Source of the DNA: Sphaerolaimus hirsutus
Taxonomy: Eukaryota; Nematoda; Chromadorea; Monhysterida; Sphaerolaimidae
Length of the DNA stretch: 64,000 nucleotides
Reading direction: 5' to 3'
Assembly: GCA_964036195.1 (NCBI GenBank)
Contig: OZ038452.1
Span: 21,091,785 to 21,155,784 of the forward strand
In this document: positions 188 through 62,400 of the stretch, piece by piece
Position numbering within the stretch: position 1 is the first letter of the stretch
Layout of the letters: each line of letters starts with the position of its first letter
Notes under the pieces: model-generated
The model's database searches: none
Told to the model about the DNA's origin: nothing
What the model saw: only the letters and a program-made list of their open reading frames with translations
Made by a program: the position numbers and the translations under genes

Positions 188-1449
188 TGTATGTGTGTAA
201 AATATTTATATTTACATTATGTAAAATTAAAAGGGAATGGATCCAGGGTTCGTTAGAATTTCATTAATCACTGATTTGATTAATCAAAGTTCTGATTAAT
301 CTTTTTCGTAAACATACTCAGACAGGAAGAACATTTAAGAATAACGGTAATGAAACTAATAAAACATCGAAATTTCAAATGAATTATATACATAAATCAG
401 GTATTTAGGTGGTTGATTTGAATCTCCTGAATATATATGTATATCGGCTGCCAACTTGCGCCTGATATAAATTTATGTATGCTAGTTTTACGTTATGTAC
501 ACTGCACTGTATACCCCGGCTCTGTGTTTCCATTATAGCAATTCTATTCATATCGGATGAATCAGCTAGGGTTGGGAAGATATATAAAAAAAATCCATGC
601 TTCTCATTTTGGTTCCTGGAACATTTTGTTAAAAAGTTCAAGTTCAAGCTCCAAATTCCTTTGTGAGCTGTGGTTACCGAACACTTACACACGGAAATTT
701 TTCTAAAGGAGAGGAATTGTTTTTCCGTCAGGAGAGGAATTATTTTTCCGTCAAAATTTTGAAGCAATTCCTACCAATTCATTACACGAAATATACTTTA
801 CTAACGCGATAACATGCCATTTTTGCCGTTTTTTAGGGGGAATTATTCAGGGGGTTAATTACCTATTCATGCAAACACGGTGTTTATCATGTGTTACGTG
901 GCATGTTTTCTGCAGGTCTTTGGGTAAATATTCTCATTGTTGTTTCATTGAGCACCGCTAAAGTAATTATATTTCTTTTGAAAGACTATGGGTTTTTTCC
1001 TGGCGTTTATGACAACGAGTAGCCCGACAAACATACGCCGGCCGTCAAAATGGTGCTGTGAAGTGTGTATTTGACTAAAATAGATACCTACCGAATAAAC
1101 CCATCACACACACCAAGTTGCGATATCATTTTGTTTTTCTGATTCACAAGTTGTGCGTTATTATTTGAAATTTTTGAGTAAATAGAAGCGCTATCCTTTT
1201 TACTGAGTTACGCAAAGATTTTTTACCGATGCCGCTATAATATTTATTGCTTGACTCTGTTGCGGGAACACTGTGAATTCGATGTTTCATTCAAAAATAA
1301 TTCATATTTAAATCTTCAACTAATTGGTAATGGTTTCCCATTAAATTAATAAATATAATGCAGAATCTGGGAAACAATAGAAATCTAAATTATAAATGAA
1401 AGATTCTCTGTTGATCACACTATCTCCTCACAAACTGCTAATAAAACGC

Positions 1450-4228
1450 TCAAACAAAGTATTCCTGCGTGGTCACGCATAGATGGGGCACCGGTCTGTG
1501 TAGCTCTGGTTGTACGGTGTGCATATCGACTTGCACAGCTTGTTCTTGGTGGAGTTTGCCATTGAGCTGGATTGAGTTCTCTTCGGAAACTGGAGGCAGC
1601 CTTTCCTCGTGCAAACTGCTGAAGTCGTCGTCGAGGTTCGACAGAGGCGGGCTGGGGGCACTGCCAAACCCTGTAAAATACCCTGTAAAATATAAGATGT
1701 CATACAAAGTGTAAAAACAAGTTTACCATTTTGCAGGGCACTTTACATGACTTTCAACACTTTGCAAAACATTTTACATTTACCAGGACATTTCTTACAG
1801 GGTCCGAGAATGACACCCGGTCACTCTGCACGCGGGCTCGGATCGCTTGGCCAGGGCCAGGCGCTCGCCGCGCACGCTCCCAGCAGTAGTGCCAGTGGAT
1901 CGCGTTGAACGGTTGCTGTAACCGAAGTTGCCGCCTCCGCCGCCGCCAGGGATCGTGTTTTCGTACACGCCGGTGGACGTGCTGACGCGCAGCCGCTGCA
2001 CCATGGCCATGCTGCGCTTGCGCACTTGGTCGCACGTGCGCGCCACGATCACTCGACCGATCTGTGGTTATATATACTTTACGGTGTGAAATGTGAATGT
2101 GGCAGTGTGGAACAGACGGCCAAAGGTCTTCTAGGTATACATGGGGCAATGTAATTTTCCGACTTCTGTAGTTCATCACTGAATCTTTAAATAATTCTGC
2201 AGATGTTTTCTATTTCTTTTCATGCATGCACGCTAGCATCGGAATTTCAAAATTTTTGGGTTTGCTATCGGATATCGGTTCCAAAAATGTTCGGGTATCG
2301 TGTATCGGCTTAACATTTTTTCGTGGGTATCTCGTTCGGATTTGGGTATTATGGTCGGTTATCGGATTAGGTAATCGCCGGGATTAGAGCTCAGCGTAAA
2401 ATGACGACGTAAAATTACGTCGTAAAATAACCTAAATCAAAATAGAACAAGGTACGGGGTTTAAATTTCAGAATTAGATAGTTCTAGTAATTATGTGTTA
2501 TGTCTCAAAAAATTTGTTAAAAATAATCATTATTTACCGTAAATCCTCGAATAAGTCCCCCCCTCAAATAACTCCCCCCTCGAATAACTTCCCCCTGTAA
2601 ACTGACTGAGGAAAAAGTAACTCCCCCCTCGAATAACACCCCCCATTTTATGGGTGGGAACGAAGTCCACGTCTAAAAAACGTAAGTATGTATACACTCC
2701 TGGAAAAATGTGTTTAGCCCTTTGATTTATTTGGTTCAATGGCGAACAAAACATTAAATATGGGTGACTGAGGGGTGAAACTCATACATAGGGGGGATCT
2801 TTATGTCAACCCCCCCCCACAGTATAAATATGGCCCCCTCCTGCGTATATAGTCCCCATTTCGTTAGCTGTGAACGCAGCGCCTTCCGCGATTTTTTGTT
2901 GCTTTTTTTTACCCCCCCAAATCGGCCAGCTATCTATCTATCCCGGAGGCCCGCTCAGCTTTCTATCTATCCCGGAGGCAAAATTTTGGGCTACTATCCC
3001 CTAAACCCCCCCCCCCCAAATCGGCCAGCTATCTATCTATCTGGAGCGATTTTTCAGAAACTATACCCCAATTTTCCTCAAAATCGCTATTTTTCATACC
3101 TTTATATGGATTTTCTCCTCCAAAATCACTAGTTCATGCATCTAACTGTCTATTTTCAGCCATTTTTAGTACTATATGTCCTTATATACCTGTTTTTAGC
3201 CATTTTACACTTACTTTCAGCCATTTTTCTCCCTTTTCTCCCTTCTATGCCTATATATTGAACCCCCGCGAACCCCCCCCCCCCAGAAAATTTTTCAGCT
3301 ATCTATCCCTCCGGAGGAGCGATTTGCTATCTAGAACACCCGCAAGGGTCCAAATCTACACAACCCCTGAGAGTAGGGTGCCAACTTTCCATTTTCCATT
3401 TTCTGTTTCTACAGGCAAATTTTTTCTATTTTCTGGCAAGTGCAAATTCCGGCAAATTTTTTTCCGTTTTTTTTCTTCGTTTTTCCGGCAAGTGAAAAAA
3501 TTTTTCCGTTTCCGCTTTCCGCAGCCACAATTCTTTCCTTTTTCTGTTTCCGTTTTCCGTTTCCGCAGGCAAATTTTTTTTCCGTTTCCATTTTCTGCCA
3601 AGTGCAAAAAAATTTCCGTTTCCGTTTTTCGGCAAGTGCAAATAAGTTTATGTTTCCGTCTTCCATAAAAAAAGTTTTGGTGACACCCTAATCAAGAGGC
3701 CGCAAATTTTATTAGGAGGGCAGATTTCTGCCCTCCCTGCTGCGTGCCTGACATTCGGCAATTAGTCACTTCCGCACGCACAAATCGCATACTCACCGGT
3801 CCCTGTTTTCCTTGGTCCTCCGGCCCCACGGCGCACACGACCGTTAACAGAATGAACCCGACAACGGCGTACAGCACCAAGTAGAGGCCCCATCCCAGCT
3901 CGTCGATGTCCACCTGGGGGCAGTCCCAGACCATGTAAAGTACCCTGTAAAATGTCAAACGTCATGCAAAGTGTCAAAAGTAATGTAAAATGCCCTGCAA
4001 GATGTCAAACGTACTTTTGCCATTTTGCAGGGCATTTTTCATGACTTTCGGCACTTTGCATGACATTTAACATTTTACAGGGTATTTTACAGGGTCTGGG
4101 ATTGGCACCAGCACGGCGGTGAGCCCGGTGACGAACAGCAGCGCGAACACGCCGCCCAGAACGAACAGCCGCTTCGGGTAGACAACGGCCGCAGCGCCGC
4201 GACCGACCATTCTCAGAGAGCGGCTCAT
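1450..4228 (-). CDS. Small two-membrane-span protein, copy A (227 aa)
   Basis: Minus-strand exons are 4109-4228, 3797-3913, 1817-2061 and 1450-1651, with phases 0, 0 and 2 that join in frame to 684 bp including the TGA stop. I chose the ATG at 4228 (MSRSLRMVG); an in-frame ATG about 25 codons upstream is the alternative. Residues about 20-40 (LFVLGGVFALLFVTGL...) and 48-70 (WGLYLVLYAVVGFILLTVV) look like membrane helices. A cytoplasm-like tail follows with CDQVRKRSMAMVQRLRVS, a Gly stretch and an acidic DDDFSSLHEERLP region. I do not recognise the family. Introns 1 and 3 coincide exactly with palindromic introner-like elements. Intron 2 (2062-3796) has an ordinary GTGAGT donor and is swollen by repeats. 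Near-identical exons in copy B and clean splice phases support a real gene. Confidence 0.8.
1652..1816 (-). mobile_element. Introner-like element forming intron 3 (165 bp)
   Basis: On the coding strand the intron runs from ACCGG|GTGTCATTCTCGGAC to GGCAGTGCCCCCAG|CCCG. The two ends are imperfect inverted repeats (GTGTCATTCTCGGACCCTG against the complement of CAGGGTTTGGCAGTGCC). The interior carries the family words TGTAAAAT and CAAAGTG in both directions. Both splice sites lie at the element tips and the protein frame is kept across it. Confidence 0.8.
2395..3690. repeat. Copy-A-specific C-rich and pyrimidine repeat block in intron 2
   Basis: The block is absent from copy B. It starts near a short palindrome of GTAAAATTACGTCG words, then a TTTACCGTAAATCCTCGAATAA C-tract module (2532 onward), then C-runs with repeated CTATCTATC.CGGAGG (2925-3330). 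It ends in a TTTCCGTTTTCC minisatellite bounded by TAGGGTG (3374) and CACCCTA (3690). The ORFs seen here are low complexity and not credible as genes. Confidence 0.75.
3914..4108 (-). mobile_element. Introner-like element forming intron 1 (195 bp)
   Basis: Coding-strand boundaries are GTGCTG|GTGCCAATCCCAGACC and GGTCTGGGACTGCCCCCAG|GTGGAC. With the flanking CTG included, the two tips match at 16 of 19 positions as inverted repeats. The whole element folds as a long hairpin around AAACGTAC at its centre and carries the family word GTCATGCAAAGTG. The same intron in copy B (23375-23569) is also 195 bp. Confidence 0.88.
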
Positions 4229-4316
4229 TGTTTGAGCTCGCTCGAGATTGATGCTCGTGGGCATGCTAGCGTAGCAGTTGATTGAACTTAGTGCAAAAAT
4301 CAATTAATACTTCATT

Positions 4317-4480
4317 GGCCCTGCGCACACTAATTTCCATAAATGAGTTTTGAACGTGTTTGAGTTTTCCACAATGAGTCGTTTTTAATCTCCGTCAACT
4401 GTAGTTGACGGCCACCTCATTGTAGAAAACTCAAATGCGTTCTAAGCTGATTTTCTAAGTGAAAACTGGTGTGCGCAAGC
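4317..4480. repeat. Hairpin MITE (CACACTA type)
   Basis: Ends GGCCCTGCGCACACTA and the complementary GTGTGCGCA enclose a palindrome centred on GTCAACTGTAGTTGAC. It lies about 90 bp upstream of the gene start, so it may sit in the promoter or 5' UTR. It is also present in copy B (about 23774-23945). Confidence 0.65.
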
Positions 4481-4872
4481 ACAGTGCAGAAAACTTGACT
4501 ATCTCCGAAAAAGATGGAAAATTGAATTTAGTTTTTGGGCGCTGGTGACTCTACGCCGCTGTAATGTGCCCGAGATTGGCCGGTCGCGTCAACTGTCTCG
4601 TTGACCAGGCTAGTTGACATCCTGCGAAATTAGGAGCGCTTGTTATTGCCGTTGCGTGCGCGGCGGCGGCTGGCAAAGTTCTCTACTGTCGCAGCGCGTC
4701 GAGGGAAGCCCGCTATTCAACCACAGCGACTTGTAACCATTCGACTCTTAAGCCAAAGTGCATCATAGTTAAGCCAAAGTGCCTCGTCTCTAAAAGTAAG
4801 TTCAATCAACTCATACAGTATTGGCTATGCATGTGAACATTTACCTGTACTGCAGCTTACAAGTCAACATAT

Positions 4873-5094
4873 TGGCGCTGCACACACTAGTTTACTAACG
4901 GTAAACTGAAAATTTGGTAAACTCAGTTTTCAGCTTCTGAGCGTGCCTGAGTTTACCGGAATGAGCTATTCGTCAACTACAGTTAACGTAGATTAAAAAT
5001 TACACATTCTGGTCAACTCAGATGCGCTCATAAGCTGAAAAATGAGTTTACCAAATTCTTAGTTTAACGTTGGTAAACTAGTGTGTGCAGCGCC
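4873..5094. repeat. Hairpin MITE (GGCGCTGCACACACTAG ends)
   Basis: The left end GGCGCTGCACACACTAG is matched by the inverted CTAGTGTGTGCAGCGCC. Arms of GTAAACT and GAGTTTACC repeats surround a GTCAACTACAGTT core. A copy is present in segment B (about 24340-24560). From 5095 to 6120 I see no gene: AT-rich sequence that is nearly identical in the two segment copies. Confidence 0.7.
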
Positions 5095-6120
5095 ATTGGG
5101 TTAAATAATGACACACAATAGCTTGAATAATGACACACAATAGCTTGAATAATGACACACTTTTTAACATACAATATGGCTATGGCTTTATAGTCGATAG
5201 CTTAAATATTGGGTAGCTTAAATCTTAGTATACTCTCCAGCGCGTGAGCTCTGTGCCGCGCTGCATGCACCAAATGCATGTGAAGGTGCCGCAAACTGCG
5301 CGCGCATGCTCGTCTATTTATGCGCGGAGCTTTTATGTGGCCATTTTCAGGGAACTGGCAGGATGTTTAGCACTAAGTATCACTTCACGCCGTTAAATAT
5401 TTTATCGAATTTCCATTTTGCTTAATTAGAAGCTGTAAATTGGAATCGCGGAATTCCCACAGCAAACATATTTATCGGTGTCTTGGTAAATGGTCCAGAA
5501 TCATGATGTTGGTATTTTAATTAGGATCAGCAGAGCAGTATGCTGGGGTTAATTCCGTCAGTGGAGAAGTAAAAAGACAACTTCAATGTGAGTGATAAAT
5601 AATTTGAGAAGTGAAGAGGCAAGTAAAAAGTCAAGAGTGATGTCAATTTATATGTGGCAGGTCAGGAAACACATAGCAAGTCAATGAGGTTTTGAACTGA
5701 GATATTCAAAAATGCTTGAAAAAAATTCACTGCAAAATTTATGTATGAGGACAAATGCTGACAGAGGAGTGATACAGACGTGTTCTAGCGGAATTAACAG
5801 AACTAGTTGGGACCAGGCTGTTGGATAGTTGAGGGAAGGTATTTAAGCTGTGCCCTCAACCTCATATTTCCTGTACATACCTCTAGCCTTGAAAAAATTG
5901 CAAGCAGTTACCTATATAAATATCTGTGATGTTAATGTGACCAACGATGGGTAAGTTTTCTACGGTAATAAAAAAACACTTTCTGTGTTTTGAGTTTTTC
6001 AAAATTGAATACCTATGTTTTGGAGTTTTTTTGTGAAAAAACTTGGGTAACTCTGTTTTTATTTCTGTGTTTTTGGTGAAAACCATAGTTTTTTTCAAAA
6101 AAGCAAGGTTTTACCCAAAT

Positions 6121-6283
6121 GGCCTCACACACACTAGTTGACATCGACACCAAATGTCAACTGGTTCCGTTCCCAACTCCAAGCTTGCATTTGAACGTCG
6201 TACATTGGCTCGTCAGCAAGCTTTGAATTGGGATGGGAACCAGTTGACATTTGGTGTCGATGTCACCTAGTGTGTGTGGGGCC
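6121..6283. repeat. Hairpin MITE (GTTGACA type)
   Basis: The ends GGCCTCACACACACTAG and CTAGTGTGTGTGGGGCC are followed inward by GTTGACATCGACACCAAATG and its complement. The same family occurs at 25796-25958, is nested inside the Ig-gene introner (61067-61230), and occurs more loosely at 52768-53150 and 55671-55887. Confidence 0.8.
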
Positions 6284-6582
6284 AATACAGTGTTTCAATG
6301 CAAAAACAGTGGTCTTATCATGACACATTTGTTTATGAATGCTCAGCGACCGTGTAAAATGTGCTGAAAAATGTAAACAGTCATGTAAAATGTCAAATTA
6401 AATATTTTGAAAGTGGGCATTTGGAATTTTTACCACGCGTTACATCTGAATACAGAAGCACTTAAATGATCAAGGCTTTTTTACCTGATGAACATCGAAG
6501 ACCACGGTCGTTCCAGTTGATGAAATCGCACTAGAAAATTCTAACAAATATTTAGGGATATAATGACTCCTGCGACTCCTGG

Positions 6583-6778
6583 TATAACTCCTGCGACATT
6601 ACACCTTACAATGAAATCTACCATATCCCATCTGAATAAAAGAACAAACATAAAAAAAATTTCATCATATTTATCAAAGCAATTTGATAAATGTAATGAA
6701 ACAAATTTTATGTTTGTTATCTTATTCAGGTGGGATATGGTAGATTTCATTGTAAGGTGTAATGTCACTGGAGTATAT
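6583..6778. repeat. TA-flanked hairpin MITE
   Basis: Inverted ends ACTCCTGCGACATTACACC and the complementary GGTGTAATGTCACTGGAGT are flanked by TATA. Long arms include CTTACAATGAAATCTACC and its complement. The duplicate is at 26258-26453. The flanking TA suggests a Tc1/mariner-type target site. Positions 6780-7250 hold another diverged inverted repeat (GTTTACC and GGTAAAC words) and no gene. Confidence 0.75.
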
Positions 6779-7254
6779 TTACACCACCGACATTTGGGAA
6801 ACTCTAAAAAAAATTTTTGATCACATTTGAGTTTACCACATTAAGGAGTCTGTCAACTAAAAATCATTCCTTCTGGTAAACTCAATATGTTCAAAACAGA
6901 TTTACGAGTTTCTCAATTTTCGGTGGTGTACTAGTCGCTCGCTAGCGTTAACCGCAACGCTTAGCTAATCGCACGCAATGAAAAGTCTTTCAAAAATGAA
7001 TACGGTTACTGTTAAGACCGAGTGACTAAATCAAATAGCTCGAGGACATCATTTGCATAGTCACTTGATCTTGGCTTTGTACAGAAGGATCAAAAGTGTG
7101 TGAACATTACAGAGTCAATTCAAACTACAGTCACAAAGTTATCTTTCGAAAGTTGCCAAAATTATGCACCTAGGAAGGTAGGTACTTTTTGAAAGTACCT
7201 ATAGATCTTAAAAATCACAGTTTATAACTCAAAGATGTGTATTTTTCATTACCT

Positions 7255-7608
7255 ACCGTATATCCTGGTAATAAAACCTCAGTGGTTTTATTATTTTTAC
7301 AGCTAAATTTGAGGGGGAGGGTCAATCCAAATGTGGATTACTATTTCAGGTTTCATTAAACTCCATAATTAATTTAGTGCATTCACATGCTCAGAAGTAA
7401 ACTACTTTCAACACTGTTAGTATTCAATCCGCATAATTAATCTATTCAATTTAAATGAATCCACCTCCATCTTTACTTGTTACATTCCTTGCGTGTGCTC
7501 TTTGATGTCTGTATGTACACAGTGTTTTCATGATTCACGCACTAATATACTTTCTGAGGGGGTGTATTTCAAGGAGGAGGAGGGCATTAATTCGAGGGAC
7601 ATACGGTA
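7255..7608. repeat. C/G-tract MITE (ACCGTATATCC ... ATACGGTA)
   Basis: Starts ACCGTATATCCTGG and ends GGACATACGGTA, with G-runs near the right end. The duplicate is at 26931-27285. Positions 7609-8043 hold no convincing gene; the short ORF around 7788 is not conserved in frame in copy B. Confidence 0.6.
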
Positions 7609-8043
7609 TTTAGGTACCTAAGAAATACAATTCAGTCCAAGATAATGATGTCGAGAATTTGATCCGCGCAACTGCAAATACGAATCCAAATATCCAGTTG
7701 GCAGTTACCCATCACCGAACATTCTCATTTTGTCCATGTGACACCACAGAATCGGCAGTTCGTTAGCGTGTCCATGTCCGCGATCGTTTGATAAATTGCC
7801 TTTATTGGATGCGTGCACACGTTAATGTATGCAGCTTCTCTCGTGAGTCGGGTCCATCAAATTTACAGCTCGTTTGCTCGCTCGTAAAACGCGGCAAATG
7901 CAATTGCTGCTCAGCACCCACTGTGCATGTCGCATCCTCGCTCGTTTCACATACTGATAACAGTATTTATCAATTTTCCATCAGTGCGCATTTCTTCCCG
8001 CCACATCAGCATACTAGGTAATGGTTCTATTCTATGATACATG

Positions 8044-8466: not shown

Positions 8467-8666
8467 NNNNNNNNNNNNNNNNNNNNNNNNNNNNNNNNNN
8501 NNNNNNNNNNNNNNNNNNNNNNNNNNNNNNNNNNNNNNNNNNNNNNNNNNNNNNNNNNNNNNNNNNNNNNNNNNNNNNNNNNNNNNNNNNNNNNNNNNNN
8601 NNNNNNNNNNNNNNNNNNNNNNNNNNNNNNNNNNNNNNNNNNNNNNNNNNNNNNNNNNNNNNNNNN
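8467..8666. other. Assembly gap (200 N)
   Basis: Exactly 200 N between a G-homopolymer repeat and the GC-rich leader of an LTR element. ORFs that cross it are artefacts. The 5' LTR of the following element, if present, is hidden here. Confidence 1.
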
Positions 8667-19810: not shown

Positions 19811-21289
19811 TGTATGTGTGTAAAATATTTATATTTACATTATGTAAAATTAAGAGGGAATGGATCCAGGGTTCGTTAGAATTTCATTAATCACTGATTT
19901 GATTAATCAAAGTTCTGATTAATCTTTTTCGTTAACATACTCAGACAGGAAGAACATCGAAGGTAATAGAACATCGAAGGAAGAATAACGGTAATGAAAC
20001 TAATAAAACATCGAAATTTCAAATGAATTATATATATATTTTTTTTTAATATATAAACCAGGTATTTAGGTGGTTGATTTGTAGCTCCTGGATAAAAAGA
20101 TGTATATCGGCTGCCAACTTGCGCCTGATATAAATATGTATGCTAGTTTTACGTTATGTACCCCGCACTGTATACCCCGGCTCTGTCTTTCCATCTTAGC
20201 AATTCTATTCATATCGAATGAATCAGCTAGGGTTGGGACGATATATAAAAAAATCCATGCTTCTTATTTTGGTTCCTGGAACGTTTTGTTAAAAAGTTCA
20301 AGTTCAAGCTACAAATTCCTTTGTGAGCTGTGGTTACCGAACACTTACACACGGAAATTTTTTTAAAGGAGAGGAATTGTTTTTCCGTCAGAAGAGAAAT
20401 TATTTTTCCGTCGAAATTTTGAAGCATTTCCTACCAATTCATTCCACGAAATATACTTTACTGACGCGATAACATGCCATTTTTGCCGTTTTTGAGGGGG
20501 ACTTATTCAGGGGGTTAATTACCGCATTAATTAATACATGCAAACACGGCATTTATCATGTGTTACGTGGCATTTTTTCTGCAGGTCTTTGGGTAAAACT
20601 TTTCATTGTTGTTTCATTGAGCACCGCTAAAGTATTTCTTTTGAAAGACTATGGGTTTTTTCCTAGCGTTTACGACAACGAGTAGCCCGACAAACATGCG
20701 CCGGCCGTCAAAATGGTGCTGTGAAGTGTGTAATTGACTAAAATAGATACCTACCGAAAAAAGCCATCACACACACACCAAGTTGCGATATCATTTTGTC
20801 TTTCTGTTCACAAGTTGTGCGTTTTTATTTGAAATTTTTGAGTAAATAGAAGCCCTATCCTTTTTACTGAGTTACGCAAAGATTTTTCACCGATGCCGCT
20901 ATAATATTTATTGCTTGACTCTGTTGCGGGAACACGGTGAAATCGATGTTTCATTCAAAAATAATTCATATTTAAATCTTCAACTAAATGGTAATGGTTT
21001 CCCATTAAATTAATAAATATAATGCAGAATCTGGGAAACAATAGAAATCTAAATGTAACAATTCTCTGTAGATCACACAATCTCCTCACAAACTGCTAAT
21101 AAAACGCTCAAACAAAGTATTCCTGCGTGGTCACGCATAGATGGGGCACCGGTCTGTGTAGCTCTGGTTGTACGGTGTGCATATCGACTTGCACAGCTTG
21201 CTCTTGGTGGAGTTTTCCATTGAGCTGGATTGAGTTCTCTTCGGAAACTGGAGGCAGCCTTTCCTCGTGCAAACTGCTGAAATCGTCGT

Positions 21290-21524
21290 CCAGGGGCCAG
21301 TTCCGCAAAATGTGAAGTGAGAGTGAAATGGCAAAGGCGAAGTGAAATGAAAAGTGAGACGTGAATTGAGAAGGGAATTGGCAAAAGCGAAGGGAAATTA
21401 CCTTCGTTTAAATTTTATTTTTTTCGCTTTTACCAATTCACTTGCCGTTTCACTTGGCCATTGCGCTTTTACTTCGCCTTTGCCATATCACTTCTCACTT
21501 CTCATTTTGCGGAACTGGCACCAG
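21290..21524 (-). mobile_element. Introner-like insertion in last exon (copy B only)
   Basis: Coding-strand tips are AACCTG|GTGCCAGTTCCGC and GCGGAACTGGCCCCTG|GACGAC. Inverted ends GTGCCAGTTCCGCAAAATG enclose a GAAGTGA/TCACTTC-rich palindrome. Copy A has the uninterrupted exon (AACCTCGACGAC), so this is a direct filled-versus-empty comparison. Both flanks read CCTG, consistent with a short target duplication. A relative lies at 50479-50670. Confidence 0.88.
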
Positions 21525-21540
21525 GTTCGACACAGGCGGG

Positions 21541-22113
21541 CTGGGGGCACTGCCAAACCCTGTAAAATACTCTGTAAAATGTAAAATGTTATGCAAAGTA
21601 CTGTCAAACGGAGTTTACCATTGTTGGTTGCAGCGGCAACGCAAGCTGTGCATGTGACGCGCACGTGAACGCATGGCGTGTCAGTGCATGACAACGCGTC
21701 GCGCGTCATATAAATAGGGCCGATTCTCAACTTTCAAGCAGTGGTACACATTTGGCTTTTTTATATTTCTCCCGTTCGCTTAATCATTCATTTTACGTGA
21801 TATGAAGCGGCTTTTGAACACCGTGGAACTTGTTCCAAGGCGACGTTGAATCCCCTAGAAATCACCACAATCATTTCAAATGTTTCCCTCCTTCGGCACG
21901 GCAGCACCGCGGACGCTGCCCTAGTTCGCCAACGTCCCCGTGCTGTTCACCTTGTTCGGCACTTTCCTCCGCTCATGCCCGCTAATCCGGATTCCTTCCG
22001 CTCCGACCCGCGTGCATACAACACCATATTGCGGGGCACCTTACGTGACTTTCGACACTTTGCGGGACATTTGACATTTTACAGAACATTTTCACATGGT
22101 CTGAGAATGGCAC
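21541..22113 (-). mobile_element. Introner-like intron 3 of copy B with a roughly 400 bp internal insertion
   Basis: Counterpart of 1652-1816. The tips are ACCGG|GTGCCATTCTCAGAC and GGCAGTGCCCCCAG|CCCG. About 400 bp of unrelated sequence (about 21620-22025) sits near its centre. That insert contains CATATAAATAGGGCC near 21707, which resembles a TATA box, followed by GC-rich sequence with short ORFs only. I do not recognise the insert. Confidence 0.75.
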
Positions 22114-22159
22114 CCGGTCACTGTGCAGGCGGGCTCAGATCGCTTGGCCAGGGCCAGGG

Positions 22160-22356
22160 CCAGGGGCAGTCCCAAGCCCTGTAAATTTTAAAGTAAAGTG
22201 TCAATTGTCATGTAAAGTGTCATGCAAAGTTTCAATTGACATGTAAAATGTCATGCAAAGTTCAGTAATAAAATTTTTTTTGTTTTGTTTTGATTGACAT
22301 TTAAGTGTCAATTGAAACTTTACTTTACACTTTACAGAGCTTGGGAGTGCCACCAG
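22160..22356 (-). mobile_element. Introner-like insertion in exon 3 (copy B only, 197 bp)
   Basis: Coding-strand tips are TGCCTG|GTGGCACTCCCAAGC and GCTTGGGACTGCCCCTG|GCCCTG. Copy A has the empty site CGCCTGGCCCTGGCC. The interior repeats the words ATGTCATGCAAAGT and CTTTACA. CCTG flanks both sides. An AG adjacent to the right tip is missing, but upstream and downstream AGs keep the frame. Confidence 0.88.
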
Positions 22357-23374
22357 GCACTCGCCGCGCACGCTGTCAGCAGTGGTGCCAGTGGATCGTG
22401 TCGAACGCTTGCTGTAAACGAAGTTGCCGCCTCCGCCGCCGCTAGTGATCGTGTTTTCGTACACGCCGGTGGACGTGCTGACGCGCAGCCGCTGCACCAT
22501 GGCCATGCTGTGCTTGCGCACTTGGTCGCATGTGCGCGCCACGATCACCCGACCGATCTGTGGTTTGGCGTGAAATGGGAGTGTGACAATGTGGAACAGG
22601 CGGCCAAAGGTTTTCAAGGCAATGGGGCAATGTAATTTTCCGATGTTCGTAGTTCATCATTGAATTTTTACATTATCCTCGAGATGTTTTCGATTTATTT
22701 TCATGCCTGCATGCTTGAGTTCGCAATTTCAAAATTTTCGGGTTTGGTATCGGATATCGGTTCCAAAACTGTTCGGGTATCGTGTATCGGCTTCGAACAA
22801 TTCTGAGGGGATCTTGTTCGGATTTGGGTATTGGGGTCGGGTATCGGATTATCAAATCAAATCAAATCAAATAAGTTTTACTCGGCTCGGACCTCTAGAG
22901 TCAATTGCAAGTAAATAACGCAAAGTAACATTGTACATACATCGGCTACCCCTAATACGCGGTCTTAATAGGTGAGTTTTTGAACGACGCTGCAACATTT
23001 GCATACCTATAACAGAACGGTGGAGTAACAATTAAAAAATATATTAAATTCTAAAAAGGAACGCGGCGGATTATGTAATAGAATTGTCGGGTACCGGGTA
23101 AAAAATAACCTGGTACTGAATAAAAAAAATACAACATGGAATAGTGTAGCTATCACCAGGCCCTAAATTGTATTATGAGGGCAGATTTCTGCCCTCCCTG
23201 CTCTGTGCCTAACATTCGGCAATTAGTCACTTCCGCACGCACAAAGCGCATACTCACCGGTCCCTGTTTGCCCTGGTCCTCCGGCCCCACGGCACACACG
23301 ACCGTCAACAATATGAACCCGACTACGGCGTACAGCACCAAGTACAGACCCCATCCCAGCTCGTCGATGTCCAC

Positions 23375-23569
23375 CTGGGGGCATTCTCAGACCGTGTAAA
23401 ATGCCATGTATAATGAAAAATGTCATGCAAAGTGCCGGAAGTCATGAAAAATGCCCTGCAAAATGGCAAACGTACGTTTGCCATTTTGCAGGGCATTTTT
23501 CATGACTTTCGGCACTTTGCATGACATTTAACATTTTACAGGGTATTTTACAGGGTCTGGGATTGGCAC
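23375..23569 (-). mobile_element. Introner-like intron 1 of copy B (195 bp)
   Basis: Same position and length as 3914-4108. The coding-strand 5' half is essentially identical to copy A, while the 3' half differs at many positions. In this copy the two arms are the better complements, with a perfect AATGGCAAACGTACGTTTGC centre. Confidence 0.85.
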
Positions 23570-25306
23570 CAGCACGGCGGTGAGCCCGGTGACGAACAGC
23601 AGCGCGAACACGCCGCCCAGAACGAACAGCCGCTTCGGGTAGACAACGGCCGCAGCGCCGCGACCGACCATTCTCAGAGAGCGGCTCATTGTTTGAGCTC
23701 GCTCGAGATTGATGCTCGTGGGCATGCTAGCGTAGCAGTTGATTGAACTTAGTGCAAAAATCAATTAATACTTCATTGGCCCTGCGCACACTAATTTCCA
23801 TAAATGAGTTTTGAACGTGTTTGAGTTTTCCACAATGAGTCGTTTTTAATCTCCGTCAACTGTAGTTGACGGCCACCTCATTGTAGAAAACTCAAATGCG
23901 TTCTAAGCTGATTTTCTAAGTGGAAACTAGTGTGCGCAAGCACACTAGTGCAGAAAACTTGGCCATCTCCGAAAAAGATGGAAAATTGAATTTAGTTTTT
24001 GGGCGCTGGTGACTCTACGCCGCTGTAATGTGCCCGAGATTGGCCGGTCGCGTCAACTGTCTCGTTGCCCAGGCTAGTTGACATCCTGCGAAATCAGGAG
24101 CGCTTGTTATTGCCGTTGCGTGCGCGGCGGCGGCTGGCAAAGTTCTCTACTGTTGCAGCGCGTCGAGGGAAGCCCGCTATTCAACCACAGCGACTTGTAA
24201 CCATTCGACTCGTAAGCCAAAGTGCATCATAGTTAAGCCAAAGTGCCTCGTCTCTAAAAGTAAGTTCAATCAACTCATACAGTATTAGCTATGGATGTGA
24301 ACATTTACCTGTACTGCAGCTTACAAGTCAACATATTGGCGCTGCACACACTAGTCTACTAACGGTAAACTGAAAATTTGGTAAACTCAGTTTTCAGCTT
24401 CTGAGCGTACCTGAGTTTACCGGAATGAGCTATTCGTCAACTACAGTTGACGGAGATTAAAAATTACACATTCTGGTAAACTCAGATGCGCTCATAAGCT
24501 GAAAAATGAGTTTAACAGATTCTTAGTTTAACGTTGGTAACCTAGTGTGTGCAGCGCCATTGGGTTAAAAAATGACATACAATGGCTTGAATAATGACAC
24601 ACTTTTTAACATACAATATGGTTTTGGCTTTATAGTCGATAGCTTAAATCTTAGTATACTCTCCAGCGCGTGAGCTCTGTGCCGCGCTGCATGCACCCAA
24701 TGCATGTGAAGGTGCCGCAAACTGCGCGCGCATGCTCGTCTATTTATGCGCGGAGCTTTTATGTGGCCATTTTCAGGGAACTGGCAGGATGTTTAGCACT
24801 AAGTATCACTTCACGCCGTTAAATATTTTATCGAATTTCCATTTTGCTTAATTAGAAGCTGTAAATTGGAATCGCGTAATTCCCACAGCAAACATATTTA
24901 TCGGTGTCTTGGTAAATGGTCCAGAATCATGATGTTGGTATTTTTATTAGGATCAGCAGAGCAGTATGCTGGGGTTAATTCCGCCAGTGGAGAAGTAAAA
25001 AGACAACTTCAATGTGAGTGATAAATAATTTGAGAAGTGAAGAGGCAAGTAAAAAGTCAAGAGTGATGTCAATTTATATGTGGCAGGTCAGGAAACACAT
25101 AGCAAGTCAATGAGGTTTTGAACTGAGATATTAAAAAATGCTTGAAAAAAATTCACTGCAAAATTTCTGTATGAGGACAAATGCTGACAGAGGAGTGATA
25201 CAGACGTGTTCTAGCGGAATTAACAGAACTAGTTGGGACCAGGCTGTTGGATAGTTGAGGGAAGGTATTTAAGCTGTGCCCTCAACCTCATATTTCCTCA
25301 TATATG

Positions 25307-25556
25307 TACTCGGCGGACATGATACTCTGCCCTCGCACTGATTTATGTCTCACGTTGGAAGCGTGCCAAGGATGATAAAGCATGCGATTTTTGTGTAAAA
25401 GATGAAGAAAGTCATTGTTGTGAATGAGTTGACGTATGACGTTATAACGGCGACGACTTTTTTCAAATTTTTATGAAAATCGCATGTGTAAAAAAATCGT
25501 TGGCACGTTTCCAGCGGGAACCACGCGTGCAGGGTGTAAAGTAACTGGAGTTATAC
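25307..25556. repeat. TA-type MITE found only in copy B
   Basis: TACTCGGCGGACATGATACT to GTAACTGGAGTTATA. It is inserted where copy A reads ATTTCCTGTACATACC, and related to 19347-19597. The interior contains ATCGTTGGCACGTTTCCAGC. Confidence 0.75.
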
Positions 25557-27878
25557 ATACCTCTAGCCTTGAATAAATTGCAAGCAGTTACCTATATAAA
25601 TATCTGTGATGTTAATGTGACCAACGAAGGGTAAGTTTTCTAATAAAAAAACACTTTCTGTGTTTTGAGTTTTTCAAAATTGAATACCTATGTTTTTGAG
25701 TTTTTTTGTGAAAAAACTTGGGTAACTCTGTTTTTATTTCTGTGTTTTTGGTGAAAACCATAGTTTTTTTCCAAAAAGCAAGGTTTTACCCAAATGGCCT
25801 CACACACACTAGTTGACATCGACACCAAATGTCAACTGGTTCCGTTCCCAACTCCAAGCTTGCATTTGAACGTCGTACATTGGCTCGTCAGCAAGCTTTG
25901 AATTGGGATGGGAACCAGTTGACATTTGGTGTCGATGTCACCTAGTGTGTGTGGGGCCAATACAGTGTTTCAATGCAAAAACAGTGGTCTTATCATGACA
26001 CATTTGTTTATGAATGCTCAGCGACCGTGCAAGATGTGCTGAAAAATGTAAACAGTCATGTAAAATGTCAAATTAAATATTTTGTAAGTGGGTATTTGGA
26101 ATTTTTACCACGCGTTACATCTGAATACAGAAGCACTTAAATGATCAAGGCTTTTTTACCTGATGAACATCGAAGACCACGGCCGTTCCAGTTGATGAAA
26201 TCGCACTAGAAAATTCTAACAAATATTTAGGGATATAATGACTCCTGCGACTCCTGGTATAACTCCTGCGACATTACACCTTACAATGAAATCTACCATA
26301 TCCCATCTGAATAAAAGAACAAACATAAAAAAAATTTCATCATATTTATCAAAGCAATTTGATAAATGTAATGAAACAAATTTTATGTTTGTTATCTTAT
26401 TCAGGTGGGATATGGTAGATTTCATTGTAAGGTGTAATGTCACTGGAGTATATTTACACCACCGACATTTGGGAAACTCTAAAAAAAAATTTTGATCACA
26501 TTTGAGTTTACCACATTAAGGAGTCTGTCAACTAAAAATCATTCCTTCTGGTAAACTCAAATATGTTCTAAACAGATTTACGAGTTTCTCAATTTTCGGT
26601 GGTGTACTAGTCGCTTGCTAGCGTTAACCGCAACGCTTAGCTAATCGCACGCAATGAAAAGTCTTTCAAAAATGAATACGGTTACTGTTAAGACCGAGTG
26701 ACTAAATCAAATAGCTCCAGGACATCATTTGCATAGTCACTTGATCTTGACTTTGTACAGAAGGATCAAAAGTGTGTGAACATTACAGAGTCAATTCAGA
26801 CTACAGTCACAAAGTTATCTTTCGAAAGTTGCCAAAGTTATGCACCTAGGAAGGTAGGTACTTTTTGAAAGTACCTTTAGATCTTAAAAATCACAGTTTA
26901 TAACTCAAAGATGTGTATTTTTCATTACCTACCGTATATCCTGGTAATAAAACCTCAGTGGTTTTATTATTTTTACAGCTAAATTTGAGGGGGAGGGTCA
27001 ATCCAAATGTGGATTACTATTTCAGGTTTCATTAAACTCCATAATTAATTTACTGCATTCACATGCTCAGAAGTAAACTACTTTCAACAGTGTTAGTATT
27101 CAATCCGCATAATTAATCTATTCAATTTAAATGAATCCACCTCCATCTTTACTTGTTACATTCCTTGCGTGTGCTCTTTTATGTCTGTATGTACACAGTG
27201 TTTTCATGATTCACGCACTAATACACTTTCAGAGGGGGTGTATTTCCAGGAGGAGGAGGGCATTAATTCGAGCACATACGGTATTTAGGTACCTAAGAAA
27301 TACAATTCAGTCCAAGATAATGATGTCGAGAATTTGATCCGTGCAACTGCAAATACGAATCCAAATATCCAGTTGGCAGTTACCCATCACCGAACATTCT
27401 CATTTTGTCCATGTGACACCCCAGAATCGGCAGTTCGTTAGCGTGTCCATGTCCGCGATCGTTTGATAAATTGCCTTTATTGGATGCGTGCACACGTTAA
27501 TGTATGCAGCTTCTCTCGTGAGTCGGGTCCATCAAATTTTACAGCTCGTTTGCTCGCTCGTAAAAACGCGGCAAATGCAATTGCTGCTCAGCACCCACTG
27601 TGCATGTCACATCCTCGCTCGTTTCACATACTGATAACAGTATTTATCAATTTTCCATCAGTGCGCATTTCTTCCCGCCACATCAGCATACTAGGTAATG
27701 GTTCTTTGATACATAATACTTAATGGTTATAATACCTGCATTATTCCCTGACAGACGGCAAAGCATTGACGCATTAGCCATTTTAATCCATCGCTAGCGC
27801 GGTGGCACTTTTACATGAACCAAAGACCAGGTGCGCATCGATAATCAATAGCAATGTCACATCAACCGTTTTATGGAT

Positions 27879-48600: not shown

Positions 48601-51600
48601 GGGGGATAATTCGAGGTAATACGGTATGTATATTTACGCATTTATATTTCTTCTGGTTTTTCTCAGGATTTTCTAGATTTCTGGATTTTATAATATTTTA
48701 CTTCTTAAAATATTTTCTGTGATTATATTTTATCATATTTTCTGAAAAATCGCACATTTTTCCAACGCTATCCGCAGTGCAGCCGCTGGGCGTGCGCGAC
48801 GGCCTGGAGCTGTACGAATTACTGACGGCGCCCATCTCCAAAGTGATGCGTAGGTGGTTCGAATCGGAGCCGCTGCGCGCCACGCTGGCCACCGACGCGG
48901 TGATCGGCTTCATGGCCGGGCCGCACAGCGCCGCCACCGGCTACGTCCTGCTGCACCACGTCATGGGCGGCGTGGGCGGCCAGCGCGGCGCATGGGCCTT
49001 CGCAGTTGGTGGTATGGGTGCGGTCAGCGATGCGTGCGCCAAAGCGGCCAAGCTCGCTGGCGCTGAGCTGTTTGTGAATGCTGTGGGTTGACACTGAGTT
49101 GTTGCTTTAATCAACAGATTGATCACTTACCGTATATCTTCGAATAAGTCTGGGTGGGGAAAATTAACCTCACCTCGAAAAACTCCCCCCTTCGAATAAC
49201 CCCACCTGAAAAACTCACCCTGGAAAAATTCTGTCTAATAAATAATACACCTGTGGTCTTATTCGAGGATTTACGGTAACTATATTTCTGGTGTACTCTT
49301 TACCTGCGCAGGAAGTAGAGTCAGTATTAACTGACAGCGAAAATCGTGCGCGCGGCGTGCGACTGCGCTCCGGCCAAGAGATTGAAGCTGGCATGGTATT
49401 TTCCAACAGTACACCAAAAGTGACTTTTGAGAGTCTGGTCGAGCAGGCACTGTTGCCGGCTCAATTCGTCAGCGATGTTGCTAACATAGACTACACATCG
49501 CCCGTGACTAAGATCAACGGTTCGTTTGTTTTACACTACTGTTCAATCGTGGGGCCAGTCCCGCACGCAGTAAAGTGCCTTGTCGAGTGTCACAATTTTT
49601 CAGATGCCCTGTCAAGTGTCAGGTTTGCACTTGCTTTTCGCATTTGAAACTTGCATAATTCATCTCCGATTTTTACTGTATTTCAACTTATCATTCAAAA
49701 ATCGTCCATAATGTATCTTCCTGACACTTTCAAATTGCCAGGTAAATTGCCAGGTAATCCTTGCCTGGCAGTTGTTACAGTGTGCAAGATTGACCCCATA
49801 TCGTACAGATTGACCCCATATCAATTGACCCCAGATTCACTTACATAATGCCACCCCTTGTTTTACACAGTGGCCTTGTCATCGCTTCCCAACTTCGAAT
49901 GTTCCCCCAACACTGGCAGCACGCCTCTGCCGCACCACCAGACCACTGTGCACTTGAACTGTGAGCACATGGATGTTGTGCAGGCCGCTTACATGGACGC
50001 TTGCGCTGGGCGGGTCTCGCGAAGGTCATTTTGAATGTCTGATTCAATGTTGGCCCACACACTGTTGACACATGTGTGTCAACTGGGGCCAGTGGCAGTG
50101 CACTATTCCGCATGTAAACCCATCCCGCATGTTGACCCGGAACACATTTAATTATACCTGGCATGTTGAAAATAGGTAATAAAACACATGACCTAGTTAT
50201 TTTGAAGGTGAAAATCTATAAGACGTATGAAAATGAGGGAATTTTGGTGAAAATTAGGGTAAAGTGGCTCAAAAGCGCTCCAGATAGCTATATAGCTAGG
50301 CAATTTGCGGGTGGGGGGGTGTTCAGGGGAATGTAGCCAAAAAAAATTTGCGCCAGGGATAGATAGATGGGCAATTTGGGGTGATGTTACCCACCCCCCC
50401 CTTTCTTACCCCTGCAGGCATAATGTGTCTATAATGGGTCTACATGCGGAATGGGCTTTGATGCGGAATGGGCCCTAGCCGGGGCGAGTTCCGCTAATTG
50501 ACAAGTGAGAAGTGAAGTGGCAAATGCTAAGTGAAATGACTTTTATATATGTATCACTTTTATATTGCTTCACTTTTTACCAATTTACTTGCAATTTCAT
50601 ATCACTTGCCATGTGACTGCGCTTTTGCCAATTTACTTCTCGCTTCTCAATTTGCGGAACTGGCACCTGGTCTGTGTCAACTCAGTATTCGGCTTCACGT
50701 GTCACGGCTTCATGCCTTCATGTTGAAAAATTAATATTACGGGAAATGTATTGGTAAATAGCTCTTCGCCACGTGATGCCGAATTCTGAGTTGACACAGA
50801 CCGGTTGACACACATGTGTCAACTAGTGTGTGGGCCGCCATTAGTGTAATAAACATCATTTTTATCCATCATCTGTACTAGGGGTGGCCGAGGGATCTTT
50901 CTAAGGTTAAAAAACACATTCTTTTTCCAAAAAAATTTTTTCCATGCCTAATCTGTACACAGGCCCGTTATCGAGATGACCATTCCGAGCAGCGTGGACA
51001 ACACCCTGTGCGCGTCGGGCAGTCACGTTGCATTACTTTTTACACAGTATACACCTTTCAGTCCCGTTGATCACGTCGAATGGGGTGATAATGCGACTGA
51101 GTCATATGCAAAAAGAGGTGGCTTTCATATTTCATGTATTGTGTTTCGTTATTGCTGTGAAATTTACGTTACAGTCGTTTTCGTGCGCAGTGTTCTCTCA
51201 AATCGATGAATATTGCCCTGGCTTCGAGAAGAGCGTGGTTGGCTATGAAGTTTTGTCGCCGCCGGCACTAGAACAGATATTTGGATTGACCGGTGGAGTG
51301 AGTTAGGGCAGGCGTGGTATGCATACTGTATCGTTTTGTTTATATGCTCCACCTCTTTAGAACATTTTCCATGGATCGATGTCAATGGATCAATTGTTTT
51401 GGAGTCGACCTGTGCGCGGTTTTGCCAATTATCGAACCCCCATTCCTGGTTTGTACTTATGCGGCAGCGGTGCTCATCCTGGTTTGTGGGATTTTGGGGG
51501 TCGCAGTGAGGTTTTTTCAAAAAAAATTTTGAGGAAGTTTATGCCGCACCACTATTTTGTTAAGATGAAACCTCGTTTTGAGTTTGGATTGCGCCATGTT

Positions 51601-57140: not shown

Positions 57141-57334
57141 CTGGTGTCACTCCCGGACCCTGCAAAGTGCTCTGTAAAATGTCAAATGTCATGCAATGTG
57201 TCAAATGTCATGTAAAATGTCCTGTAAAAAGGCAAACTAGTTTGACATTACACGGCATTTCAATTGACTTTTGACACTTTGCATGACAGTTGACATTTTA
57301 CGAGGCATTTTACAGGGTCTGCGAGTGCCCCCTG
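57141..57334 (+). mobile_element. Introner-family copy outside a coding region (194 bp)
   Basis: CTG|GTGTCACTCCCGGACC at the left and CTGCGAGTGCCCC|CTG at the right, with interior ATGTCATGCAATGTGTCAAA and AAATGTCCTGTAAAA. CTG stands at both flanks, consistent with a 3 bp target duplication. It lies 27 bp upstream of the start codon of the 52396-57114 gene in the opposite orientation, so it may sit in the 5' UTR or promoter. Confidence 0.82.
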
Positions 57335-59409: not shown

Positions 59410-62400
59410 TCACGCGTGTACAGTGACGCTGGCAGAATACTTGGCTATGGCTTTCTTGTCCTTGATCACCTTGACCGTGTAGATGCCGCCGTCGGCCGCC
59501 TCGACGCTCTGAGTGGATGTTTTGGGGTATTTTTTTGTCACTTTTTTAGTGTGGAAGTTGTATGAGAGCCCACCTTGATGTCTAGCTTGAAGGCATTGCC
59601 TGATTTCATGGATTTGACGCGGTCGCCTTTCTCCACCTTCTCGCCGTCCTTGAACCATTGCACTGCGCATCGAGTATATTTATTCACACATGCGCGAGTG
59701 TTTCATCGACAAAATTTCATTTGATTCATCGTTTGTGTTTCATCGAGCGATCGCTCGCAACCAACCGGTCAAGTCCTTGGCATCCTTCAACTCCAGCTGC
59801 AGTTTGTCCGGTTTCCCAGCGGCGACGATCACGGGCGCGGGCAACTTGGTCGCGTCGGGCACGGGCGGCTTCTTGTCGCGCACGACCACGCTGCCGGCGG
59901 ACGTCGCCGTGCCGCTGGCCGACCGCATGTCGCACTGGTAGCAGCCGGCGTCGTCGGCCGTCGCGCCGCTGATGCGCAGCGAGTGCGCGCCGCCGGCTGA
60001 AGTGACGGCCACGCGCGACCCGTCCGCCTTGACCTCCTTGCCGTTGCGCAGCCACACCACCTCGCTGGGTGTGCCTGCGTGGAAATAGAACGGTTTTGTG
60101 TGTAGAGAATATCGCTCTAGATATATGTTGAAAAAGGTCGCTCCATGATATTTGACGCGACATCGATTTTTTGGTGTCAACATTCGATAATTGATATTTT
60201 CGGTCGACTTTCGATTTCCAATTTTACGGGAAATTTCTGAAAGCTCGATATTTGAACTTTGAAGGATGTTTAGGAGCCTAGATAAATACATTTTATTGTT
60301 GTTTTTTGCACAGCGCTCCCGTGCTTACCTTCGGTAGAGCATTCCAATAGGATCTCTTCGCCGGCGGCAACGATTCTCGGTTCCATGTCTCTTTTCAGAA
60401 CTACTGGACCAGTGTCCGCAGGCGCAGCCGCCGCCCCATTGGTTTCATCTGCCGCCGGCGGCGGTGGCGCCGCGCTCACTCTGAAATTGCGTGTGTTCAA
60501 GTTGTCACAGAAGTTGTGCACTATTCACATGGGTGCTAGATAGGGTTGGAAATTTGTTTTTGAATCGCCTTGATTTTTATAATCAATTTTTTTAATTGAT
60601 TAAAAAAATTTAGAATCAGTTTTCAACCTGTGATAAAAAAAAACAGATTGAAAAATTCAAGTGCCACCCCCAGAATTGACCAACCTGCAAATGAGCTGCG
60701 CCTTGCAAGACTCCCCACCGGCGGCGTTCGTCGCCCGGCAGCAGTACTCGCCGGAGTCGCCCGCGTCGCACTTGCCCACCGCCAGCGTGGCCGTGCCGCC
60801 TGCGTGCGTCATTTTCACCCGCCCGCCGCGGTCGCCGTCTGCCAACTTCTCGCCGTTGTGCAGCCACTCGACCCAGGGCTCGGGGTCGCCGCGCACGCCG
60901 CACGTGAACTGCGCCGACTCGCCCGCCTCGCAGGTGCAGTCCTGGGGGGCAGTCCCGGACACCGTAAAGAGCCCTGGAAGATGGAAAATGTCACGCAAAG
61001 TGTCAAAAGTCACGTAAATGCCCGGTAAAATGGCAAACGTACGTTTGCCATTTTACCGGGCATTTTGGGCCCACACACGCTAGTTGACATCGATACCAAA
61101 TGTCAACTGGTGCCGATCCCGATTCAAAGCTTGCTTACGAGAGGACGAACAACGTTCAAACGTACTCTTTGAATTAGGAACGGAACCAGTTGACAGTTTG
61201 TGTCGATGTCAACTAGCGTGTGTGGGGCCTTTATGTACGTGCCGTTTGACACTTTGCGTGACATTTTCCATCTTCCAGGGCTCTTTACAAAGTCCGGGAC
61301 GGGCACCTGCAGCGCGGGCCCGAAGTTCGGCGGCGTCTGCGTCGACGTGCTCGCCGTGGCGGCGGAACTGTCGTCGCGCGCCGCGCTCTTGCTGGTTGAC
61401 GCTTGGGTGCGGCGCGCGTCCGCTGAGGAGTGCGACTTGGCTAGGTCCCTCGAACCTGGTTTTTGGGCGGTTTGAAGGGGTGCTTTTAAGGTCAAAATTT
61501 AGTTGTTTTGAAAATGTACTGTTGTATGTGCAATACACTTAGATTTTCCGCCCTTTCCTAATGCATTTTCCAGCCATGTAGGTAAATTCGTATTTTGCTA
61601 TTTGGCGCAAAAATGTGTTTATGTAGATGGCTTGCATTCTTGCAATAGCATTTTCTTTGTGTAGATTCTACCTAATTTGAATAGGGCTGATTCATCAGCA
61701 TTTTCTGTGTCTGCCCCGTTTTTCTTAGGTAGACTTCACTTGTGATTTTAGTGGAAATGTTTGGCAGGTTTTCTTGAGCCAACAGTATTGTGTACTGCTC
61801 GATTACTATGCCCTAATTGATTGCCACAATAAAAGCTGAAATGTATAAATTGTGGGCCATGATTACTTGGCTTTTACTAATCAATTAGACTACCACTAAT
61901 CCAAGTCACCCCAGAAATAAATATGTGTACTAACACACATAACATGGTGACTGTACTGGGAGCACCGCATTGGTGCTCCCATTAATCAAACCCAGTCGCG
62001 CAGCAGCCACACCATTTGCGTGCGCCGCCGCGACTTAGCGAAAATCGGCCGCTCCATTGGGCAGCCGAAAGTTTTTGGTCGGCTGCCGTTGAAAACGACA
62101 GCCGATTTGCGTTCCGGCTGGCCGTTTCGACCACGCGCCTAAGTGGCGTTGGTTAGCGCCCACGGGGGCATTGGACATTGCGCCACGGGCGTTGGCAATC
62201 GCGCCGCGGGCGTTGGCACTTCACCACGCAACGCGACGCCCTGCCCACCGGGTTGGTCACTGCGCCGCTCGGACATTCCAGCCCGGCGGCGACATTCCTG
62301 CGCCGCGCCACGCCTCTGCACCAACCGCGCTAGTGTTGAGCGTTTGAGCTCCACTAGCGTTGGTAACGCTACAGCGCCGCGCCGCGCACCTTTTTCCAGT

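Follow-up and report, generated by a model that had tools for sequence, protein, structure and literature searches.

The origin of new introns is a long-standing question, and the locus described here raises it in a concrete form: can a hairpin element that lands in a gene become an intron, with the tips of the element as the splice sites? We analyzed one stretch of 64,000 nucleotides (the window) from the nematode Sphaerolaimus hirsutus (contig OZ038452.1) that contains nine copies of such hairpins. Judged from the reading frames, hairpin elements landing in genes appear able to create new introns, and we estimate a probability of about 85% that the hairpin family in this window is a real introner family. 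We favor this reading because of two lines of evidence that carry the case: reading frames that close when elements are removed tip to tip, and paralogous sites that are empty. Introners are an already known kind of element, reported from other organisms. This locus offers a probable source of introns together with its anatomy, namely a target site, tips, an orientation rule and empty sites.

Hairpin copies and independent insertions

The hairpins, the target-site pattern, the paralogous empty sites and the frames that close tip to tip can all be read directly in the DNA. The nine copies represent seven independent insertions, two of which are common to both copies of a tandem gene duplication (Table 1). 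Five of the insertions belong to family A (3914, 1652, 60942, 22160 and 57141, each named here by its first position) and two to family B (21290 and 50479). The nine stretches listed in an earlier note on this DNA all exist, but the bounds given for four of them (22160-22356, 57141-57334, 21290-21524 and 50479-50670) include the flanking target triplets.

Several similar introns, with similarity that reaches both splice boundaries, are what defines introners. This is found for three of the seven insertions (five of the nine copies). Their two tips coincide to the base with the GT and AG needed for an open frame (junctions inferred from the frames). Two of these tip-to-tip introns are in a gene for a protein with two membrane spans and one splits an Ig domain. 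The earlier note listed all of these copies for their tip structure; that every one of them is an intron at its tips is not supported. For example, 57141 and 50479 do not sit at splice sites.

Table 1. Coordinates in the window of the hairpin elements and of the exons of the two-membrane-span gene
Feature	Position	Strand	Observations
Exon 4 to stop codon, paralog 1	1450..1651	-	contains empty site of 21290 insertion
Putative introner A2 = intron 3, paralog 1	1652..1816	-	frame closes: ...RVTG joined to PPLSNL...
Exon 3, paralog 1	1817..2061	-	contains empty site of 22160 insertion
Exon 2, paralog 1	3797..3913	-	compared with paralog 2: 9 synonymous and no nonsynonymous codon changes
Putative introner A1 = intron 1, paralog 1	3914..4108	-	GTGCCA...CCCCAG; in-frame stops if kept; full-length hairpin
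Exon 1, paralog 1	4109..4228	-	start ATG to ...AVL
Family B copy, exon 4 of paralog 2 only	21290..21524	-	CTG both sides; GT tip, no AG opposite
Paralogous copy of A2 with nested insert of about 404 bp	21541..22113	-	from paralog alignment
Family A copy, exon 3 of paralog 2 only	22160..22356	-	CTG on donor side; GT tip, no AG opposite
Paralogous copy of A1	23375..23569	-	same junctions; identity 95/96 in 5' arm, 82/99 in 3' arm
Degenerate family A fragment, another PYROXD2 intron	49549..49718	-	about 30 bp from donor, not at intron tips
Family B copy, antisense within PYROXD2 intron	50479..50670	-	flanks CAG and CGG; not at splice sites
Family A copy, no gene recognised around it	57141..57334	+	CTG both sides
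Putative introner A3, intron within Ig (I-set) domain	60942..61306	-	CAG before donor, CAG at acceptor

Two putative introns in a tandemly duplicated gene

The two-membrane-span gene lies in a tandem duplication of about 7.7 kb (337-8028 and 19981-27705), the copies of which are about 19.7 kb apart. The aligned blocks of the duplication are about 85 to 98% identical, and a portion of its middle (about 2370-3690) is unaligned. Read on the minus strand, the element at 3914-4108 is GTGCCAATCCC...GACTGCCCCCAG, 195 nt. Its removal tip to tip joins ...VTGLTAVL to VDIDELGWG... in frame in both paralogs, which supports the proposal that the splice sites of intron 1 are the tips of a hairpin. A2 (1652-1816) behaves likewise, with stops if it is read through and an open frame if it is taken out. 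The region of exon 1 (4109-4229) is the same in paralog 2 at 121 of 121 bases. A search of 5.8 billion proteins gave 2491 candidates, none of them a homolog of this gene at E <= 1. Therefore, the exon edges rest on the reading frame, on comparison of the paralogs and on the codon pattern.

The codon pattern also bears on whether these genes are functional. If the elements were disruptive transposon hits, the genes would be pseudogenes and nothing would be spliced. Such decay would be compatible with the two insertions without a tip AG in paralog 2, and with the part of exon 3 that precedes the 22160 insertion (its first 67 codons), where 5 synonymous and 7 nonsynonymous differences between the paralogs hint at relaxed constraint. 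However, the differences in exon 2 are exclusively synonymous (Table 1), and so are those in exon 4 downstream of the 21290 site (3 synonymous and 0 nonsynonymous over 61 codons). In addition, A1 and A2 are common to both paralogs and the frames of the exons that flank them are still open, as are the Ig exons described below. We consider it unlikely that the genes are pseudogenes.

The divergence between the paralogs shifts abruptly at position 4015 (support 4005-4034), adjoining the center of the introner palindrome at 4012.5. Below 4015, 37 of 325 sites differ, and above it 29 of 1819. This step at the hairpin (3914-4111 and 23375-23572) suggests an end point of gene conversion or exchange.

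A putative intron within an Ig domain and copies away from splice sites

Once A3 is taken out, PPNFGPALQ runs on into DCTCEAGESAQF (minus strand), the Ig exons read open and the domain is continuous. The joined protein aligns to Ig domains of titin across the A3 junction. In the best titin chain, four of six domains align from residue 2, and thus over the junction; in a second chain, all four begin at residue 2 or 3. The best-scoring domain alignment begins at residue 11, just past the junction. The Pfam I-set match begins at profile position 5 before the exons are joined and at position 1 afterward, and its score does not rise (78.1 bits before, 78.0 after).

PYROXD2 occupies 45.6-51.5 kb. 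The first 18 of its best 120 protein matches (7998 scored) are all from nematodes. Among the matches listed, Plectus sambesii has the highest identity (60%, with 79% of the query aligned), which most likely means a nematode host without near relatives in that list. Elsewhere in the window, a BEL/Pao-type retrotransposon extends over several ORFs (31271-40624), and a run of 200 N (8467-8666) represents an assembly gap or a masked stretch.

The copy at 50479 and the fragment at 49549 are located in PYROXD2 introns, away from the splice sites. This is what would be seen if the introns of this locus were old and ordinary and MITEs had inserted later inside them, in which case the coincidence of tips and splice sites would be due to chance or to boundary drift. 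In contrast, three independent introns consist of an element tip to tip, with no further intron sequence outside, and two more insertions are in exons and have element-free paralogous sites. Old introns invaded by later elements are thus a very improbable account of the three tip-to-tip introns, which we regard as the insertions themselves.

Insertions private to one paralog

The insertions at 22160 and 21290 are found in only one of the two paralogs. At the empty site of 22160, exon 3 of paralog 1 reads ...GGCGAGCGCCTGGCCCTGGCC..., with CTG as the target; at that of 21290, exon 4 reads ...AACCTCGACGACGAC..., with CTC as the target. These two paralogous empty sites indicate that the family moved after the duplication, or else that both copies were lost from paralog 1. 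Insertion after the duplication is the simpler reading. The earlier note had proposed an active or recently active family, and mobility after the tandem duplication is the part of this proposal that the two insertions support. Together with CWG flanks and palindromic TIRs, the empty sites provide the signs of mobility expected of introners.

The earlier note counts 22160 among the recurrences of the tip structure and places 21290 in a sister family. The GT tip is present in both, but neither has an AG at the opposite tip, because the target copy there reads CTG in sense (for the non-donor side of 22160, this requires a one-base shift of the end). Other candidate acceptors are available. Three of the eight AGs between the 22160 donor and the next intron keep the frame. 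The first of them (TTTACAG) is inside the element and would add 6 residues, and the other two would drop 6 and 9. Of the 28 AGs after the 21290 donor, 6 would preserve the original C-terminus; one is inside the element and would add 37 residues, and the other five would lose 9 or more.

Anatomy of the elements

The halves of the 3914 element (3914-4012 and 4013-4111) are 86% complementary and have no spacer between them. The arms of 3914 and 23375 measure about 99 bp, which makes each of these elements a palindrome over its full length. Profiles of both families were run on both strands of the window. The one for family A gave end-to-end matches at 1652, 3914, 22160, 23375 and 57141, and found 21541 and 60942 each as two halves that flank nested inserts. 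Weaker matches include fragments at 6340-6422, 26015-26098 and 49549-49718. The nested insert in 60942-61306 is a 168-bp repeat (61065-61232), and that in 21541-22113 is about 404 bp (21619-22022) and has a single copy within the window. The tips are intact despite these inserts, which is what a constraint acting mainly on the splice ends would predict. Copies of the 168-bp repeat are also present at 6118-6285 and 25793-25960, and the copy inside A3 is inverted relative to these two.

With at most one mismatch allowed, the window contains 8 occurrences of the tip GTGCCARTCCC, compared to 1.6 expected, and none of 100 shuffles reached 8. Five of the occurrences are donor tips of listed copies, one is in the 49549 fragment and two are elsewhere (32583 and 61110). 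All seven independent insertions, from both families, have GTG at one tip and GGG (read inward) at the other. In sense, the non-GTG end has TGCCCC or a similar sequence, and the target triplet comes next. A looser form of the tip pattern had three matches in viral contigs, judged to be near chance, and the one inspected had no family A match; a stricter form had no match in prokaryote genome contigs or in viral contigs. A search for RNA families and tRNAs found none.

An end-to-end fold is obtained for each of the nine copies, and its outermost pair leaves 2-4 bases free at the start and 4-7 at the end. The predicted fold of the 3914 intron is -117.2 kcal/mol (z = -19 relative to shuffles), and that of 1652 is 6 standard deviations below shuffles. 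Donors of the putative introners match the U1 consensus at 4-5 of 9 positions, compared to 5-7 of 9 for seven conventional donors, which were placed by eye and leave out two PYROXD2 introns (the one after exon 4 and the one near 51.3 kb). The conventional donors are also loose, and three of the seven lack a G at +5. Removal of the hairpins by a structure-guided process with no need for GT-AG, as considered for the nonconventional introns of euglenids, would fit the folds of all nine copies, the weak donors and the intact frame that paralog 2 would also have if the copies lacking a tip AG were removed exactly, but it is the least probable of the alternatives, and a highly improbable one, given that all three insertions apparently used as introns have GT and AG and that ordinary in-frame acceptors are present for both 22160 (3 of 8 AGs) and 21290 (6 of 28).

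Target site and orientation

With the ends of each element set by the 11-base tip symmetry (the strict rule), the flanking triplet is CWG (CAG or CTG) at 10 of 14 flanks; with a one-base slip at two ends, it is CWG at 12 of 14. The slips concern the C run at the acceptor end, which would be one base longer in 60942 and one shorter in 22160. CWG makes up 2.9% of window positions. The corresponding binomial values (4e-13 strict, 3e-17 with slips) are too extreme, since flanks that belong to the same insertion do not count as independent observations. The same triplet is present on both sides of two of the seven insertions under the strict rule (57141 and 21290), and of four if 60942 and 22160 slip. 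The duplications are imperfect in 3914 (CTG/CAG) and 1652 (CGG/CAG), and the flanks of 50479 are CAG/CGG.

CAG is at the acceptor side in all three insertions that appear to be used as introns. In all five exonic insertions the GTG tip is upstream in sense (two-sided sign test, 0.06). Known coding sequence makes up about 6% of the window and contains five of the seven insertions (1.8e-5; with a weighting for CWG density, 1.9e-4); these figures are rough, as they use an approximate coding length and known genes only, count the paralogs apart and come from a window picked for these elements. The pattern fits a simple filter, in which CAG-sense insertions persist as introns and the others are seen here in one paralog only.

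A proposed model for intron gain

We postulate the following model, in which the splicing itself, the identity of the transposase, the helper role of the hairpin and the order of the mutations are inferred. The introners would be hairpin-shaped MITEs, a non-autonomous type of DNA transposon. They would target CWG, leave a second copy of this triplet on insertion and be spliced out of the pre-mRNA from tip to tip. The ancestor probably had GGG...CCC ends, like those of NuwaI/PHIS elements. With GTG now at one end, an element would carry a splice donor with it. At the other end, which reads TGCCCC, the acceptor would come from the duplicated CAG that follows, so that the intron ends in CCCCAG. 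With GTG upstream and CAG in sense, the product would be CAG/GTGCCA...TGCCCC/CAG/, and splicing of such an insertion would restore the original coding sequence. A CTG-sense insertion would gain a donor and have no acceptor AG at its tip. The palindrome would fold end to end and leave both splice sites unpaired at its base, and the hairpin may help to pair a weak donor with its acceptor. The rule makes a simple prediction: CAG-sense insertions should become introns at their tips, and CTG-sense insertions should not.

Comparison with known systems

Introners were reportedly the subject of a study by Huff et al. in 2016. They have been described as families of similar introns with similarity that extends to both splice sites, many of them with TIRs or TSDs (PMC9860276), and with 5 to more than 2,000 copies per family per genome (Gozashti et al. 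2022, PMC9860276). The elements in this window resemble them in being similar introns with similarity to both splice sites and in having a TIR and a TSD. They differ from the introners in that report in their nematode host, their CWG target, their palindromic structure and their GTG tip opposite a GGG tip. In that report, the Chrysochromulina introner has a 4-bp TSD and no TIR (PMC9860276, Fig. 2C legend). In the main text of that report, tables apart, the stem "nematod" does not occur. Judged by titles and abstract openings among the matches listed, the open-licence introner literature reports no nematode introner. In 104 nematode genomes, 168 gained introns were found in Caenorhabditis, and their source sequence was not identified in the account given (PMC9169325).

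The nonconventional introns of euglenids have inverted repeats near their ends, and a MITE-like origin has been proposed for them (PMC4770533). The elements described here also have inverted repeats. However, nonconventional euglenid introns have variable, non-canonical borders (PMC4770533), whereas the three introns here keep GT-AG.

The NuwaI group of PHIS transposons duplicates a CWG target, has TIRs that usually start with GGG and is found in animals (PMC4482050); the hosts listed there are 12 bony fish, a coleopteran, a crustacean, a mollusc and an anthozoan, with no nematode among them. Pangu was considered as the CWG-target group and was rejected, as CWG belongs to NuwaI (PMC4482050). 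The elements in the window are like NuwaI in their CWG flanks. Their tips agree in part, with GGG at one end and GTG at the other in all seven insertions. They differ in being one whole palindrome with arms of about 99 bp (3914 and 23375), compared to TIRs of 12-61 bp in the published NuwaI families (PMC4482050). Membership in NuwaI would also predict autonomous relatives with a DDE transposase and a Myb/SANT protein. No DDE transposase family was found among 19 scanned ORFs, a subset of all those listed in the window, and non-autonomous copies would be expected to lack one. Based on these sequence features, the window elements are likely members of NuwaI (PHIS). Among the matches listed from the literature since 2023, none treats introners and NuwaI together.

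The asymmetry of the tips may belong to the families and not to single copies, as GTG and GGG are paired in all seven insertions of both families, including the two copies outside exons. We speculate, with some reserve, that the families as such are ready for splicing and that this state arose when a NuwaI-like transposon adapted to splicing, through a change of GGG to GTG at one end and use of the CAG half of the CWG target as the acceptor, giving nematodes a molecular source of introns. If the link to NuwaI is true, a family of introners would be connected with a transposon group that already has a name, PHIS/NuwaI.
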